A stretch of 64,000 bases of DNA, from the NCBI GenBank assembly GCA_036322835.1, contig AP027304.1, positions 124,001-188,000 of the forward strand, read 5' to 3'. Every line of letters starts with the position of its first letter. The first letter of the stretch is position 1. Made by a program: the position numbers and the translations under genes. Of the stretch, positions 14,918 to 19,150 are shown piece by piece. This DNA comes from Tenuifilaceae bacterium CYCD. GTDB lineage: Bacteria > Bacteroidota > Bacteroidia > Bacteroidales > Tenuifilaceae. The notes beneath the pieces were generated by a model. The model had not been told where the DNA came from, did not search any database, and saw only the letters and a list, made by a program, of their open reading frames with translations.

Positions 14918-16159
14918 TTACTTTAACTCGTGAATTACAATACCGCTACGGAGCTTTGGCTCAAACCAGGTGGTTTTTGGAGGCATGATGTTGCCGGTAT
15001 CGGCAATGTCAATTAGCTGTTTCATGGAAACAGGGTAAAGGGCGAAGGCAACCTTCATATCGCCACTGTCAACACGTTTCTTAAGTTCGCCTAGTCCACG
15101 GATACCACCAATAAAATCAATTCTCTTTGATGTTCTCAAATCCTTGATATCAAGAATTGGCTCAAGAACTAGGTTCGATAGAATTGTAACGTCGAGTACA
15201 CCAATTGGATCGTTATCGTTGTAGGTCCCTGGTTTTGCAGTTAACGAGTACCATTTACCCTCAAGGTACATGCTAAAGTTGTGCAGCTTGCTAGGGGTGT
15301 AAATACCAGCACCCATCTCCTTAACCTCGAAACCAGCCTGTAACTTCTCAATTAACTGCTGACCAGTTAATCCGTTCAAATCTTTCACTGTACGGTTATA
15401 GTCAATAATCTTTAGCTGATTATCGGGGAAGATAACCGCCAAGAAGTAGTTGTACTCCTCGTTACCTGTGTGGTTTGGATTGTTTTTCTTCTTCTCAAGT
15501 CCAACACGTGCAGCAGCAGCTGTACGGTGGTGGCCATCGGCTACGTAAAGTGCAGGAACTGCAGCAAAAATCTCGGTGATACGCTTGTTAACAGCAGCAT
15601 CGTCGATAACCCAGAAATGGTGACCAAAACCATCCTCTGCCACGAAATCGTAAACAGGCTTGCTATTCTTTACAACATTCTCAACAATTTGGTCCATCTC
15701 CTTAACTGCAGGGTATGCAAAGAATACAGGCTCAATGTTTGCATTCTGGTTACGAACATGAATCATACGATCCTCCTCCTTATCGGGACGGGTAAGCTCG
15801 TGCTTCTTAATTTTACCCTCCATATAATCCTCAAAATGACAAGCAGCCACAAGTCCGTACTGAGTGCGTCCATCCATAGTTTGAGCATAGATGTAGTACT
15901 TATCCTCAGTATCCTGAACTAACCAGCCATTTGCTTTCCATTTCTTGTAGTTCTCAACCGCTTTATCGTAAGCTTCCTTTGAATGCTCATCGATAATTGG
16001 TTTGAAATCAATCTCTGGCTTAATGATGTGAAGCAACGATTTCTCCCCTGCCTCAGCCTGAGCCTCTACAGAGTTCAACACATCATAAGGACGCGAAGCC
16101 ACTTCCTTTGCAAACTCCTTTGGTGGGCGAATACCCTTGAAAGATTTTATTTTTACCAT
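14918..16159 (-). CDS. DUF1015 family protein, serine-operon member
   Basis: 413 residues, the usual length for DUF1015. Family landmarks include RPPKEFAKEVASRPYDVLN at the N-terminus, a central YVADGHHRTAAAARVG and a final IVIHELK. The His-His-Arg centre looks like an active or binding site and recalls ParB/Srx-type nucleotide-using folds, but no function is established. It is the last gene of the serC-serA operon. This neighbourhood is recurrent in Bacteroidota and links it to serine metabolism by context. An inserted four-helix-bundle gene separates it from serA. Confidence 0.9.
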   Translation of the reverse strand: MVKIKSFKGIRPPKEFAKEVASRPYDVLNSVEAQAEAGEKSLLHIIKPEIDFKPIIDEHSKEAYDKAVENYKKWKANGWLVQDTEDKYYIYAQTMDGRTQYGLVAACHFEDYMEGKIKKHELTRPDKEEDRMIHVRNQNANIEPVFFAYPAVKEMDQIVENVVKNSKPVYDFVAEDGFGHHFWVIDDAAVNKRITEIFAAVPALYVADGHHRTAAAARVGLEKKKNNPNHTGNEEYNYFLAVIFPDNQLKIIDYNRTVKDLNGLTGQQLIEKLQAGFEVKEMGAGIYTPSKLHNFSMYLEGKWYSLTAKPGTYNDNDPIGVLDVTILSNLVLEPILDIKDLRTSKRIDFIGGIRGLGELKKRVDSGDMKVAFALYPVSMKQLIDIADTGNIMPPKTTWFEPKLRSGIVIHELK

Positions 16160-16172
16160 AAAAAAGTTAAAT

Positions 16173-16194
16173 GTTAAGAGTTAAAAGTTAAAAG
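16173..16194. repeat. Left arm of inverted repeat around a four-helix-bundle gene
   Basis: This 22-base segment is complementary to 16566-16587 at 19 of 22 positions. In the minus-strand transcript the two arms would pair and loop out the gene between them. The arm starts 14 bases upstream of the DUF1015 start codon. Confidence 0.65.
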
Positions 16195-16203
16195 ACCAAT
16201 ACA

Positions 16204-16551
16204 TTAAACGGACTTGAGGTATTTGATTAAGCCCAAAGTTAATTGTTTAACCAATAAAATATGTTTAAGAATATCTGAGACATCCGATATATAACCAATT
16301 CTATTTGATATTAATATCTGCGTTTCAACTTCGGCTAACGATCCTATTGCAATGTAAAGGAAATGGATTGTTTCTCCTGAACTATTTCTAGCACATCCCT
16401 CTGCAATATTTGATGGAACTGAAACCACGGCTCTCCTTAACTGGGAGGTTAAACCATAAATCTCTTCTTTAGGAAAAGATTTGGTTAACTCATAAACCTC
16501 TACGGTCAACTCAACAGCCTCTTTCCAAGCCTCAAGTTTTGTATGCTCCAC
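16204..16551 (-). CDS. Four-helix-bundle protein (23S rRNA IVS type) between serA and DUF1015
   Basis: 115 residues, all-helical, with the family signature LTSQLRRAVVSVPSNIAEG at about 34-52. This is the S23/IVP (TIGR02436-like) family, originally found as ORFs inside intervening sequences of 23S rRNA and related to the Avd protein of diversity-generating retroelements. Function is not established; related proteins bind nucleic acid through a basic pentamer surface. Complementary 22-nt arms enclose the gene on both sides, as in rRNA intervening sequences, although here it lies in an mRNA operon. Confidence 0.9.
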   Translation of the reverse strand: MEHTKLEAWKEAVELTVEVYELTKSFPKEEIYGLTSQLRRAVVSVPSNIAEGCARNSSGETIHFLYIAIGSLAEVETQILISNRIGYISDVSDILKHILLVKQLTLGLIKYLKSV

Positions 16552-16565
16552 CTCTTCTCGTTTAA

Positions 16566-16587
16566 CTTTTCACTTTTAACTTTTCAC
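16566..16587. repeat. Right arm of inverted repeat around a four-helix-bundle gene
   Basis: Complementary to 16173-16194 at 19 of 22 positions; lies 14 bases before the start codon of the enclosed gene and just after the serA stop. Confidence 0.65.
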
Positions 16588-16593
16588 CTGTTA

Positions 16594-17517
16594 TTACTTA
16601 TTTACCTGAAATGTTTTATCACCATTCTTAATAAAACCAACAATCTGACGAGCAGAAGCTAGTCCAGCGTTGATGTTTGCCTCGGCAGTTTCGGCACCCA
16701 TTTTCTTAGGGGTAGAGAATACACGGCCAGGGAATTTCTCAACCAACTCAGCGTGATTATCGGCCATAATATCGGTTGCGTACTTAAGGTCTGCTCTCTC
16801 GGTGAAAGTTTTAACCAAGCCAGCCTCGTCAATAACCTCTTTACGGGCAGTGTTGATTAATGCAGCACCCTTAGGCATTTTCGATAGCAGCTCGTAACCA
16901 ATAGATTTTTTGGTTTTGTCGTTAGCAGGAATATGTAATGAAACGTAATGGCAAGTGCTGTAAAGCTCTTCAATTGAACCAACAACCTTTACGCCATCCT
17001 TCTCCATGGCCTCTTTAGCCACGAATGGATCGAAAGCGTAAACTTCCATTCCAAAACCTTTACCGTACTTAGCCACCAACTTACCTACGTTTCCGTAAGC
17101 GTGAATACCAAGTTTTTTACCGTGAATCTCGGTACCGGTACCGGGTTGGAAAAGACCACGGGCCATAAAAATCATCATACCGATTGCCAGTTCAGCCACA
17201 GCATTTGAGTTTTGGCCAGGAGTGTTCATTGCAACAACTCCTTTTGCTGTACAAGCAGCAAGGTCAAGGTTATCGTACCCAGCTCCAGCACGAACAACAA
17301 TCTTTAGATTTTTGCCAGCCTCAACAACTTCCTTGGTAACCTTATCGCTACGCACGATAAGCGCATCGGCATCGGCCACAGCCTTTACCAAGTCATTAGG
17401 ATCGGTATATTTCTCAAGAAGAGCCAATTCGAAACCAGCGTCCTCAACAATCTTTCTAATTCCGTCAACCGCAGCCTTTGCAAAAGGTTTTTCGGTTGCT
17501 ACTAATACTTTGGTCAT
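16594..17517 (-). CDS. serA: D-3-phosphoglycerate dehydrogenase, short Bacteroidota type
   Basis: 307 residues, catalysing the first step of serine synthesis (3-phosphoglycerate to 3-phosphohydroxypyruvate). It has the D-2-hydroxyacid dehydrogenase fold: VVRAGAGYDNLD, NTPGQNSNAVAE, a nucleotide-binding LGIHAYGNVGK and catalytic Arg in LINTARKEV. It is the short form without ACT or other regulatory domains, so feedback inhibition by serine through ACT is not expected. The usual catalytic-His segment (TPHxG) reads STPKKMGAE, with lysines instead. From memory this variant is typical of Bacteroidetes SerA. It is in one operon with serC. Confidence 0.95.
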   Translation of the reverse strand: MTKVLVATEKPFAKAAVDGIRKIVEDAGFELALLEKYTDPNDLVKAVADADALIVRSDKVTKEVVEAGKNLKIVVRAGAGYDNLDLAACTAKGVVAMNTPGQNSNAVAELAIGMMIFMARGLFQPGTGTEIHGKKLGIHAYGNVGKLVAKYGKGFGMEVYAFDPFVAKEAMEKDGVKVVGSIEELYSTCHYVSLHIPANDKTKKSIGYELLSKMPKGAALINTARKEVIDEAGLVKTFTERADLKYATDIMADNHAELVEKFPGRVFSTPKKMGAETAEANINAGLASARQIVGFIKNGDKTFQVNK

Positions 17518-17551
17518 AATTTGATAGTTTTAGTTGATACTTTTTGAAACG

Positions 17552-17576
17552 TTAGAAGTTAGAATACAGAAGTTAG
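17552..17576. repeat. Left arm of inverted repeat around the second four-helix-bundle gene
   Basis: 25 bases, complementary to 17989-18013 at 21 positions. The arm contains the stop codon of the enclosed gene (17573-17575), so the protein's last codon lies in the repeat. Confidence 0.65.
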
Positions 17577-17953
17577 GAGTTAGAATTAACAGAACCACTA
17601 TTCTTTTGCATAGAGTTCATATACGACTCTAGCATTTTACCAATTTCATCGACATCAGCTCTTAAACTATAGGTAGAAGCATAATTTAAATCCTGAGAAA
17701 GAATTAGGTAATACTTACATTCCTCCAGAGAGCCCTGCGAAATATTGTAATATCTAAGTTTGTCCTTTACTCCCTTTTTCTTATACCCTTCGGCAATATT
17801 TGCAGCAATAGATACTGCTGCTCTACGAAACTGACTGGTTAATCCAAATAGTTCCTCTTTAGGAAATGATGCGGTTATCTTATAAACACATAGAACAAAA
17901 CTATGGGCTTTTTGCCACATCAATAAATCCTCGAAACTACCCTTGTTTCCCAT
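17573..17953 (-). CDS. Four-helix-bundle protein (23S rRNA IVS type) between serC and serA
   Basis: 126 residues of the same family as the gene at 16204 but clearly diverged, with LTSQFRRAAVSIAANIAEG at about 38-56 and a longer, polar C-terminus (MQKNSGSVNSNS) that runs into the 3-prime repeat arm. It lies between serC and serA and is transcribed with them. The sequence of its arms (AGAAGTTAG-like units) differs from that of the other element (AAAAGTTAA-like units), so the two are separate acquisitions rather than a local duplication. Function is unknown. Confidence 0.9.
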   Translation of the reverse strand: MGNKGSFEDLLMWQKAHSFVLCVYKITASFPKEELFGLTSQFRRAAVSIAANIAEGYKKKGVKDKLRYYNISQGSLEECKYYLILSQDLNYASTYSLRADVDEIGKMLESYMNSMQKNSGSVNSNS

Positions 17954-17988
17954 AAGTTCAAATGTGCATTACCAAATCTTTTCGTTTG

Positions 17989-18013
17989 CTAAATTCTATC
18001 TTCTAAATTCTAA
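17989..18013. repeat. Right arm of inverted repeat around the second four-helix-bundle gene
   Basis: 25 bases complementary to 17552-17576 (21 of 25). It starts 35 bases upstream of the enclosed start codon and lies after the serC stop. Confidence 0.65.
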
Positions 18014-18030
18014 ATTCTTTTATAAAACAT

Positions 18031-18056
18031 GGGCTGGATAGAGAACCATCCAACCC
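18031..18056 (-). other. Hairpin just after serC
   Basis: GGGTTGGAT and ATCCAGCCC form a stem on the minus strand directly behind the serC stop. There is no long T run, so it may be a processing or mRNA-stabilising stem, or a leaky terminator, rather than a full terminator. Confidence 0.4.
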
Positions 18057-18070
18057 AAGAATAGTACTAA

Positions 18071-19150
18071 TTATGCGTTCAATTTCTCAAATTCCTTCAT
18101 GCAATCAACAAGTGCCTGCACACTCTCAATTGGGCAAGCGTTGTAGCACGATGCGCGGAAACCACCAACCGAACGGTGACCTTTAATACCAACCATTCCG
18201 GCTTTCTTGGCGAAATCCATAAACTCAGCCTCTTTAGCCTTGTACTGCTCGGCCATTACAAAGCAGATGTTCATGATAGAACGATCCTCTTTAGCCGCAG
18301 TGCCCACAAACATCTTGTTGCGATCAATCTCGTTGTAAAGCAGATCAGCCTTTTGGTTGTTAATCTTGTTAATAGCGGCAACACCACCAATAGATTTTAA
18401 CCATTTCAATGTTTCGTGCATTACGAAGATCGAAATTACTGGAGGAGTGTTGTACATCGAGTTGTCCTTAGCTTCGGCACCAATGTGGGTTCTGTAATCA
18501 ACCATGCTAGGAAGTTTACGTTGGATTTTCTCCAAAACATCCTTACGAACAATTACGAATGTAACACCAGCAGGACCAACATTCTTTTGAGCTCCACCGT
18601 AGATAAGAGCGTATTTCTTAACATCAACCGGACGGCTCATAATATCGGAACTCATATCGGCCACTAGGTTAATAGGGCAATCCATATCGGTTTTGATCTC
18701 GGTTCCGTAAATGGTATTGTTGGTTGTGATGTGGAAATAATCAGCATCGGTAGGAATTTTATACCCCTTTGGAACGTAGGTGTAATTCTTATCGGCCGAC
18801 GAAGCAACCACTTCAACTTCACCGTATAGTTTAGCCTCTTTAACAGCTTTTTTAGCCCAAACACCAGTTTCAAGGTAAGCAGCCTTCTTGTTCAAAAGGT
18901 TAGCTGCTACTGTGTAGAACTGGGTTGAAGCACCACCGCCAAGGAATAGAACTGCGTAGTTATCGGGGATATTGAGTAATTCCCTCCATAACTGCTCAGT
19001 TTCAGCCATAATTCGCTCCCAACCTGGAGTCCGGTGTGAGATTTCTAAAAGACCAATTCCAGTACCATCAAAATTACGGATAGCATCAATTGTTGCCTCA
19101 ATGGCTGGTTTTGGAAGCACGCAGGGACCTGCATTAAAATTATGTTTCAT
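18071..19150 (-). CDS. serC: Phosphoserine aminotransferase
   Basis: 359 residues, the standard SerC length. It is a class V PLP aminotransferase converting 3-phosphohydroxypyruvate and glutamate to phosphoserine. Visible are [10 protein letters not shown] at the start, [20 protein letters not shown] and the Schiff-base lysine in [14 protein letters not shown]. The C-terminal [12 protein letters not shown] is typical. It is the first gene of the serine operon and is followed by serA and DUF1015. No serB is in the window. Confidence 0.97.

Follow-up and report, generated by a model that had tools for sequence, protein, structure and literature searches.

What are two genes of the S23/IVP family, a large family known mainly from rRNA intervening sequences (IVSs), doing at both junctions of a protein operon, and why is each enclosed by complementary arms? 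The window analysed here, a 64,000-nt stretch of the genome of Tenuifilaceae bacterium CYCD, carries a serC-serA-DUF1015 operon with both junctions occupied in this way, and an earlier note, made from the letters alone, had read the arms as RNA stems that may fragment the polycistronic message and change the SerC:SerA:DUF1015 ratio. At each junction lies a compact S23 element, ~420-460 nt long, whose sense S23/IVP gene is enclosed by two inverted tandem-unit arrays, as follows:

14918..16159, minus strand: DUF1015 gene, downstream operon gene (PF06245, 372.6 bits)
16166..16195, minus strand: S23a 3' arm, inverted array of the same 7-mer type as the S23a 5' arm
16204..16551, minus strand: S23a, S23/IVP four-helix-bundle gene of 115 aa with a GTG start, serA-DUF1015 junction
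16558..16587, minus strand: S23a 5' arm, 7-mer array reading GTGAAAA-GTTAAAA-GTGAAAA-GTTAAAC in the sense direction
16594..17517, minus strand: serA-like 2-hydroxyacid dehydrogenase of 307 aa, middle operon gene (PF02826 and PF00389)
17552..17576, minus strand: S23b 3' arm, inverted array of AGAAGTT/AGAATAC type, overlapping the end of S23b
17573..17953, minus strand: S23b, second S23/IVP gene, 126 aa, serC-serA junction
17989..18013, minus strand: S23b 5' arm, sense 7-mer array of AGAATTT type
18071..19150, minus strand: serC, phosphoserine transaminase, upstream operon gene (NF003764, 464 bits, and TIGR01364, 447.7 bits, both above cut-off)

The assignment of both junction genes to the S23/IVP family, already made in the earlier note, is borne out by profile scores well above the cut-offs (PF05635, cut-off 33.8: S23a 123.2 and S23b 123.5 bits; TIGR02436, cut-off 24: 120.8 and 121 bits). 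The two proteins are ~42% identical over their aligned part, and their genes stand in operon-sense orientation, all five genes being on the minus strand; the stop codon of S23b falls within the 3' arm of its own element. The serA-like gene reaches 208.6 bits against TIGR01327, below the equivalog cut-off of 454. The genome, a single contig, holds five S23 genes above cut-off. The arms also match exactly as had been claimed, at 19 of 22 positions for S23a (16173-16194 with 16566-16587) and 21 of 25 for S23b (17552-17576 with 17989-18013), and their scores of 17.5 and 15.0 were reached by 0 and 1, respectively, of 2000 dinucleotide shuffles of the flanks. A scan of the 64-kb window for inverted pairs no more than 700 nt apart, seeded on exact 8-base matches and scoring at least 14, returned 6 pairs, with the S23a arms at the top (17.5) and the rest at 14-15; the S23b arms, which lack an exact 8-base run in register, are absent from these pairs. 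The label of low complexity attached to the arms is misleading, as they are really ordered tandem 7-mers (GTTAAAA-type in S23a, AGAATTT-type in S23b).

Flank complementarity of S23 genes outside rRNA, the absence of which would have told against the earlier note's idea, proved to be common in the half of that check which can be computed. With arms called where an inverted flank match scores at least 16, and mismatched flank pairs serving as control, arms enclose 76 of 128 S23 genes in the window's own genome and its relatives (control 1.2%), and 50 of 85 in named genomes from about a dozen phyla (control 1.0%). The first sample represents part of the listed S23 matches (80 stretches plus the search loci), in which 149 S23 hits reduce to 137 distinct genes, 128 of them with 250 nt on both sides and 4 of these 128 from viral contigs; the arm test was applied to the 5 S23 loci of the viral-contig scan. 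The named-genome scan yielded at least 587 confirmed stretches with S23-related genes, yet it was built from 9 closer S23 sequences, a choice that biases the 80 named loci toward their S23 subgroup, and one gene (L154, score below 16) occurs twice among the 85 and once in the 212-element set described below. Non-S23 ORFs from the same loci reach a score of 16 in 4 of 121 cases, 3 of which overlap S23 genes, and at least five ORFs of this control proved to be S23 or S23-overlapping despite exclusion (three of them scoring at least 16). Scores below 16 were obtained for 52 of the 128 and 35 of the 85 genes, and one divergent S23 group (L005, L065, L126-L128, L130) scores between 8 and 10.5.

Each arm consists of short units repeated in tandem, in most cases 7- or 8-mers, and the two arms of an element are inverted relative to each other. 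Autocorrelation of the arms is 0.605 at lag 7, whereas lags other than multiples of 7 give 0.24-0.35, and across 212 elements the periodicity lies above the 99th percentile of shuffled letters in 138 of the 5' arms and 140 of the 3' arms, with medians of 5.1 and 5.0 units per arm, respectively. Both arms have the same period at 93 of 103 loci (permuted mean 48.5, maximum 62), and periods 7 and 8 recur across distant phyla. Strand composition is similarly regular, with G exceeding C in 135 of 144 left arms and falling below it in 5, such that the C-poor strand reads inward. The unit sequence itself is locus-specific in most cases and common to both arms of one locus. The two arms of a locus are thus arrays of one unit type, and hardly base-for-base mirrors of one another.

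Among close homologues, unit type goes with S23 lineage. Of the 212 elements, 206 have at most one stop. Of the 121 pairs with unrelated neighbours and S23 identity of at least 0.6, 21 share arms (17.4%), compared with a mean of 1.9% and a maximum of 6.6% in 1000 permutations. This link is visible only above about 0.55-0.6 S23 identity, and, taken over every pair with unrelated neighbours, the similarity of the proteins does not correlate positively with that of the arms (Spearman -0.04). Related S23 genes at unrelated sites share 9-mer arms, for example, in L132/L133/L135 versus L134/L142. At synonymous divergences of about 0.8 or more, or saturated, all 13 both-armed pairs share arms; of the 24 pairs whose dS was undefined or at least 0.7, this test took in 21, leaving out three pairs within the unarmed L065/L127/L128/L130 group, and set aside 8 of the 21 with a member scoring below 14. 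The S23 genes themselves are under purifying selection, with a median dN/dS of 0.07 over 28 pairs that are non-independent, genes being common to several pairs (8 of 36 pairs gave no dS).

Comparison of operons with and without the insert, which the earlier note had suggested as a way to define the ends of the elements, revealed occupied, gene-less and plain junctions, but no clean target duplication. The occupant varies between related species at the serA-DUF1015 junction (26 of 30 serA loci examined; L027, L028, L029 and L036 left out) and at one in Flavobacterium: some carry one S23 element, some another, some an inverted array without a gene, and some none of these. Occupants were labelled by eye at both, the masked L278 being left unlabelled; four serA-DUF1015 junctions (L022-L025) lack any such element and have gaps of 12-27 nt. 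Occupants also differ at two junctions within the window's genus, and among the gene-less arrays is one, in the genome of the window itself, that is pieced together from several unit types. Mapped on the Flavobacterium host tree, which is weakly resolved, occupants require 14 changes against a shuffled mean of 16.3, a value as low being found in 24 of 200 shuffles, and so the labels are barely less scattered than shuffled ones. The Flavobacterium S23 tree includes 6 of 7 lineage-B genes together with lineage-A copies under other ids (L250, L251), because of which lineage A does not form one group. Neither target-site duplication nor clean excision was found at the two window-genus junctions and the one Flavobacterium junction searched, where arm surroundings are AT-rich and the window-genus sites compared are only 82-94% identical. 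Instead of insertion, homologous exchange that replaced the junction in its entirety could account for the different occupants.

Given that the arms are arrays of one unit type hardly mirrored base for base, and that the unit tracks S23 lineage, they look like repeated DNA recognition sites. We therefore favour, with a probability of roughly one half, the explanation that they are DNA-level recognition arrays ending an IVS-like element in host operons, with the S23 pentamer as their likely reader. Under this explanation the arms would present repeated recognition sites at both element ends, comparable to multi-site transposon ends, and the predicted reader would most likely be the S23 pentamer itself, perhaps with about one unit per subunit. 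The S23-family relatives 2gsc and 2rld have solved structures with five chains each, and in the account of the Coxiella IVS the X. campestris S23p is described as a homopentamer and S23/IVP as having no known function (PMC4990558). The elements would replace one another as modules at operon junctions, where turnover is seen, and may be expressed via host read-through transcription, as with IVSs in rRNA; if the arms pair in the transcript, and are perhaps cut there by RNase III, this would then be a by-product.

Several alternative hypotheses may explain the same symmetry. The one closest to the earlier note, that selection for pairing maintains the arms as a stem in RNA, from which RNase III-like cutting removes the S23 part and separates or tunes the operon messages, appears unlikely to us, even though the arms do pair in predicted RNA when folded against shuffled controls, as the earlier note had proposed (S23a: z -3.32, 0 of 100 shuffles as stable; S23b: z -1.88, 3 of 100). 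Most S23 genes run in the same direction as both neighbours (114 co-oriented with both versus 2 opposed to both, among the 126 of 137 genes with both neighbours called within 700 nt), a bias that would fit an RNA-level life cycle as well; RNase III cuts mid-stem in the Coxiella rRNA IVS as described (PMC4990558), and hairpins could likewise form from the inverted arrays without a gene that occupy the same junctions. However, over 144 loci the arm mismatches comprise 136 G·U against 167 A·C, with no excess of G·U, whereas terminator-like hairpins, a control in which perfect pairs were demanded at both stem ends and hairpins were not individually inspected, gave 53 against 23. Since the arms are hardly in register, part of this wobble count compares paralogous units, which makes a test of register the cleaner of the two: when the units of one arm are put in shuffled order, the match is hardly lowered (mean percentile 0.56 over 90 loci), although a slight in-register excess remains (Wilcoxon p 0.012; 8 of 90 loci above the 95th percentile). 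Wobble ratio and unit-order permutation, both near null, point to no constraint specific to RNA, and searches of 15 loci for known RNA families returned 8 matches at E<=0.5, none at gathering score. A cutting or ratio-setting device is further at odds with the fact that related species have other occupants, or, as at L022-L025, none, at the same junction. Of the earlier reading, what stands is the existence of IVS-like sense S23 elements with complementary enclosing arms; what finds no support is the retention of the arms as a stem in RNA, for cutting or for setting a protein ratio.

More doubtful again is the idea that the arms are a mutational by-product, with slippage arrays homogenised by template switching or gene conversion and a unit devoid of function. 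It would account for units that vary inside arrays, are shared by both arms and differ between most loci, as well as for gene-less arrays such as the several-unit patchwork and for the slight in-register excess. Yet copying by template switching should yield arms that match in register, of which there is a weak sign at most; the unit type is kept near synonymous saturation and, more often than in permutations, at non-orthologous sites of related S23 genes, while the same two periods recur in distant phyla. Movement of non-autonomous elements in trans, by a RAYT/Y1 transposase as for REPINs or by a reverse transcriptase (RT) as for Avd-bearing diversity-generating retroelements, strikes us as highly improbable. 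S23b is distantly similar to Avd, and at E<=1e-6 matches to Y1 occur in 30 and to RT in 15 of 40 genomes; against this, the window's genome, with its five S23 genes, has no match to PF01797 (Y1) or PF00078 (RT) at E<=1e-6, the S23-rich relatives G011, G016, G019 and G021 have no RT match at that threshold, and the distribution of the enzymes speaks against a strict need for them. As for chance complementarity of AT-rich, low-complexity flanks, the arms are indeed C-poor and AT-rich, and two-copy inverted matches may arise by chance, but scores are far lower in all three controls (flanks paired across loci, shuffles, and ORFs other than S23), and we consider that these rule it out, leaving it a negligible probability.

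S23 elements are probably an overlooked class of interchangeable, candidate mobile elements in distant bacteria. A bolder version, to which we attach only tentative belief, is that they may be bacteria-wide, transposase-free minimal mobile elements, in which a five-protein ring reads about five 7- or 8-base units at either end of its own element, with the unit 'word' re-evolving along with the protein and rRNA IVSs being a special case. Were this so, each lineage would have a private address common to both element ends, and rRNA IVSs would be such elements that had landed in a ribosomal RNA gene. The cross-phylum arm rule, namely a unit common to both ends that follows the protein lineage, gives S23 a testable function, the recognition of its own arms; it also ties rRNA IVSs to the hundreds of related genes found elsewhere, and makes the arm units a natural library of possible protein-DNA specificities. 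It further cautions that complementary arms flanking a gene need not imply a selected RNA stem.

Among known systems, the nearest is the 23S rRNA IVS of the Coxiella and Leptospira type, which the elements resemble in size, sense S23 ORF and complementary enclosing arms. The Coxiella IVS is 428 nt long, and an inverted-repeat stem encloses its sense S23 ORF (PMC4990558). Directly before that ORF stand tandem heptamers (GACAGAT), three in number or, in some strains, two (PMC4990558), a further likeness, though heptamers beside the S23 ORF are a trait not known to be general in IVSs. The elements differ in their host, a protein operon junction in place of a 23S rRNA gene, where IVSs sit in helix 9, 25 or 45 (IVS arms being known here from the literature only), and, whereas the Coxiella authors judged S23p to be probably unexpressed (PMC4990558), the S23 pairs compared in this analysis show purifying selection. 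In the window's genome the three 23S genes, of 2821 nt each, span the whole model without an IVS-size insert, and two short 23S motifs had no exact match among 243 loci. A highly divergent LSU sequence (G001:C311) bears several inserts, the largest of ~200 nt, in which no open frame of 80 codons was found. The S23 family entries (PF05635, TIGR02436), of which S23a and S23b are clear members, describe the protein; the literature searched, which included few subscription papers and no bioRxiv preprints, yielded no account of S23 genes flanked by such matching arms.

Intergenic tandem heptamer repeats are known from Cyanobacteria as STRRs. TAACTGA heptamer repeats, likewise intergenic tandem 7-mers, have been described from Beggiatoaceae, Cyanobacteria and Bacteroidetes, but as direct repeats; a single case in the sets is inverted, and the term S23 occurs 0 times in the text of that paper (PMC4679880). 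Similarity of S23b to the Avd of diversity-generating retroelements is distant and below cut-offs (bAvd, PF22296: 33.9 bits, cut-off 40; DivGenRetAVD: 34.6 bits, cut-off 80), and the window's genome lacks an RT match. REPIN/RAYT and other MITE-like palindromes are short inverted intergenic elements, some of them gene-less. Unlike these, the elements described here have hypervariable tandem-unit arms tied to an S23 gene, in a genome lacking a Y1 match. With transposons and MITEs, finally, they share inverted ends, and the occurrence of a related gene with the same arms at unrelated sites.

Both junctions of the serC-serA-DUF1015 operon are occupied by genes of the S23/IVP family (PF05635), laid out as follows:

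18071-19150, minus strand: serC
17573-17953, minus strand: S23b, S23/IVP gene at the serC-serA junction
16594-17517, minus strand: serA-like gene
16204-16551, minus strand: S23a, S23/IVP gene at the serA-DUF1015 junction
14918-16159, minus strand: DUF1015 gene

The earlier note had reported this arrangement, with complementary arms enclosing each gene, and we confirm it, including the exact arm matches (19/22 for S23a and 21/25 for S23b). The arms are ordered 7-mers in inverted orientation, GTTAAAA-like around S23a and AGAATTT-like around S23b. Their arm scores are 17.5 and 15.0, equalled by 0 and 1 of 2000 dinucleotide-shuffled flank pairs, respectively. Predicted RNA folds likewise pair the arms of both elements, with z values against shuffles of -3.32 (S23a) and -1.88 (S23b). 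The 307 aa product of the serA-like gene (16594-17517) scores 208.6 bits, far under the PGDH equivalog cut-off of 454, consistent with a short form. Many relatives carry a terminator-like inverted repeat after serC, and by eye S23b lies downstream of that repeat (18010-18070).

Such arms are not peculiar to this operon. The genome yields seven PF05635 matches, two of which are halves of one broken gene, and inverted short-unit arms are visible by eye at L001, L004 and the broken L006/L007, built from different units (TGTCACT, GTTGATA and a 9-mer, respectively) and scoring 15.0, 19.5 and 24.0 (L006); none are seen by eye at L005, which scores 9.5. Directly upstream of the L001 element lies a second, gene-less inverted TGTCACT-type array pair, and the 3' arm of L001 contains an ATG, the apparent start of the next gene (both by eye). 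The L004 element apparently lies between a suf-operon gene and what we take to be sufS, whose first codons, translated by eye, would be 3' arm. Across part of the S23 loci among the matches listed for 40 genomes, this one included, each gene's 5' flank was set against the reverse complement of its 3' flank (220 nt each). A score of at least 16 is reached by 76 of 128 S23 genes (4 on viral contigs; mean of all own flank pairs 18.0), against 1.2% of mismatched flank pairs (mean 9.1), and by non-S23 ORFs of the same loci in 4 of 121 cases, 3 of which overlap S23 genes. In 80 named loci, among the matches listed in a genome scan, 50 of 85 S23 entries do so (mismatched pairs 1.0%). Complementary flanks, which the earlier note had proposed looking for outside rRNA, are thus borne out in both samples. 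As judged from record titles, these 50 entries cover about 12 phyla, among them Bacteroidota, Clostridia, Acidobacteria, Planctomycetes, Verrucomicrobia, Nitrospirae, Chloroflexi, several proteobacterial groups, Ignavibacteriales and candidate phyla. S23 genes also occur on IMG/VR viral contigs (L067-L071), where 3 of 4 tested score at least 16. A divergent subgroup (L005, L065, L126-L128 and L130) has arm scores of 8-10.5 and low dN/dS where computable, L005 and L065 sharing the motif DMLCES...NIVGGY; it is possibly a domesticated member of the family.

The anatomy of the arms is regular. Over 87 loci, the autocorrelation of the arms averages 0.605 at a lag of 7 and 0.578 at a lag of 14, against 0.24-0.35 at the remaining lags from 3 to 13. 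Among 212 elements, arrays exceed the 99th percentile of letter shuffles in 138 5' and 140 3' flanks, with period 7 in 91 and 91, period 8 in 30 and 28, and a median of 5.1 and 5.0 units per array, respectively. Where both ends carry arrays, the two arms agree in period at 93 of 103 loci (expected 48.5, maximum 62). Unit sequences vary widely, TT, AG, GT and AA being over-represented given letter content (240 units), and the inward-reading strand is C-poor (G>C in 135 of 144 left arms, G<C in 5).

The earlier note interpreted the arms as an RNA stem. Selection on pairing in the transcript should tolerate G·U mismatches above A·C, as is seen in 120 terminator-like hairpins of the fetched loci (53 against 23), yet the arms of 144 armed loci hold 136 G·U and 167 A·C; the first 87 of these loci gave 94 and 102 and differ from the hairpins at Fisher p 0.0017. 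Mirrored arms should also lose their match when unit order is shuffled in one arm; the actual order is barely better than shuffled (18.01 vs 17.25 over 90 loci; percentile 0.56 on average; p 0.012 by Wilcoxon test), so that the arms have the unit in common but hardly the register. Arrays about equally frequent and long at both arms are what DNA-level recognition at two ends would produce, whereas an RNA reader would meet the unit in one arm only. The earlier interpretation is partly supported: IVS-like S23 elements with enclosing arms stand, and pairing selected as an RNA stem is not supported. As to orientation, both neighbours lie on the S23 strand in 114 of 126 cases with both called (both opposed in 2, mixed in 10), compared with 66 of 91 co-oriented triplets among other genes of the same loci. 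S23 elements are mostly sense within co-oriented gene runs, as rRNA IVSs are in rRNA, a bias compatible with dependence on read-through transcription and also with an RNA-level life cycle.

Gene and unit are held together among close homologues. Of 121 pairs whose neighbours are unrelated and whose S23 identity is 0.6 or higher, 21 (17.4%) have arms in common; when arms were permuted among genes 1000 times, the share averaged 1.9% and never exceeded 6.6%. Over all 9860 unrelated-neighbour pairs protein and arm show no positive correlation (Spearman -0.04), which makes the link a short-range one. Where both members are armed and dS is either saturated or at least about 0.8, all 13 pairs share arms (pairs non-independent, genes reused), and the unit thus outlasts neutral sites. 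The S23 protein is itself conserved (median dN/dS 0.07, 28 pairs).

Occupants of a given junction differ among relatives. The serA-DUF1015 junction has an S23 match in 9 of 26 serC-serA-DUF1015 sets compared, and in L027 outside those 26; three of the nine are broken (L010 by a stop codon, L017 and L018 by stops and split frames). By eye, a remnant is left in L011 and gene-less arms in L013, while L015, L016 and L020, like L235 at a junction of the same-genus genome G001, have different gene-less inverted arrays, 8-mers of CTTTGCGT/CTTAGCGT type, at junctions that have S23 elements in related species; gaps in L022-L025 are 12-27 nt. Comparing operons with and without the insert, as earlier proposed, thus places an S23 element, a gene-less array or a short gap at the same junction; a clean target duplication was looked for at two same-genus junctions and one Flavobacterium junction and not found. 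S23a clusters with L017, L018 and L021 (support 100/98), all from other genera and with similar GTKAAAA-type arms (by eye), and not with L009, the copy in same-genus G002. Among 30 serA loci, the serC-serA junction has an S23 match only here and in L029 (broken). One S23 junction of G002 is plain in this genome and has a gene-less inverted array in G001; at a second, both have only a right-arm-like array. Elsewhere in this genome, 7-mers of four or more types (GTTGATG, GTGAAAA/GTTAAAA, AGAATTT and TGTCTGA/AGACATC) follow one another in L236 (contig C1, about 3148400-3148800; locus positions 1300-1600), and several of these types also occur in S23 arms of this genome or its genus (by eye); no PF05635 match is listed there.

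At a Flavobacterium junction upstream of an ndpA-like gene, 17 of 30 species carry an S23 gene related to that of L153; by eye these fall into two lineages, of 10 and 7, whose 8-mer arms differ. By eye, seven others (L275, L280, L282, L283, L286, L287 and L291) have a short gene-less inverted 7-mer hairpin with the arm AGAATCA-AGAGCCA-AGATAAA-AGAC, three another inverted repeat, one is masked, and two resemble other or decayed S23 genes. On the host tree the occupant labels require 14 changes, compared with 16.3 on average for shuffled labels, of which 24 in 200 need no more. The two S23 lineages are intermixed within a 12-species clade (SH-aLRT 99, no bootstrap; tree weakly resolved). In the S23 tree, lineage B (6 rows) is a single clade (support 95); lineage A does not emerge as one group, because its gene copies under other ids and the related L157 fall within it. 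Differing occupants may reflect several insertions at one site, or junctions exchanged in their entirety.

The observations comprise a sense S23 gene, inverted unit arrays with a common unit, gene and unit kept together among close homologues, and differing junction occupants. On a DNA-level reading, the arrays would be putative binding sites at the element ends and an S23 ring their candidate reader. The S23-family structures 2gsc and 2rld each contain five chains, and the X. campestris S23p is described as a homopentamer (PMC4990558). This genome has no Y1 transposase or reverse transcriptase match at E<=1e-6.

The closest known system is the S23-bearing IVS of 23S rRNA. Identity with it was rejected, given the protein-operon site and 23S genes in this genome that lack such an insert. 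Contig C311 of the G001 bacterial assembly (L248), whose AT-rich LSU rRNA is highly divergent, is probably contamination. CPR rRNA inserts are also described as encoding the 23S_rRNA_IVP domain (PMC11270868), and the Coxiella IVS as having two or three tandem heptamers before its ORF, in strain-dependent number (PMC4990558). In the literature searched, nothing in print ties S23 genes to matching repeat arms; the association is real and widespread, and undescribed there as a rule. Unlike rRNA IVSs, the present elements sit in a protein operon, yet gene family, size and enclosing arms are all as in the S23-bearing IVS, and the two work alike and are probably kin.
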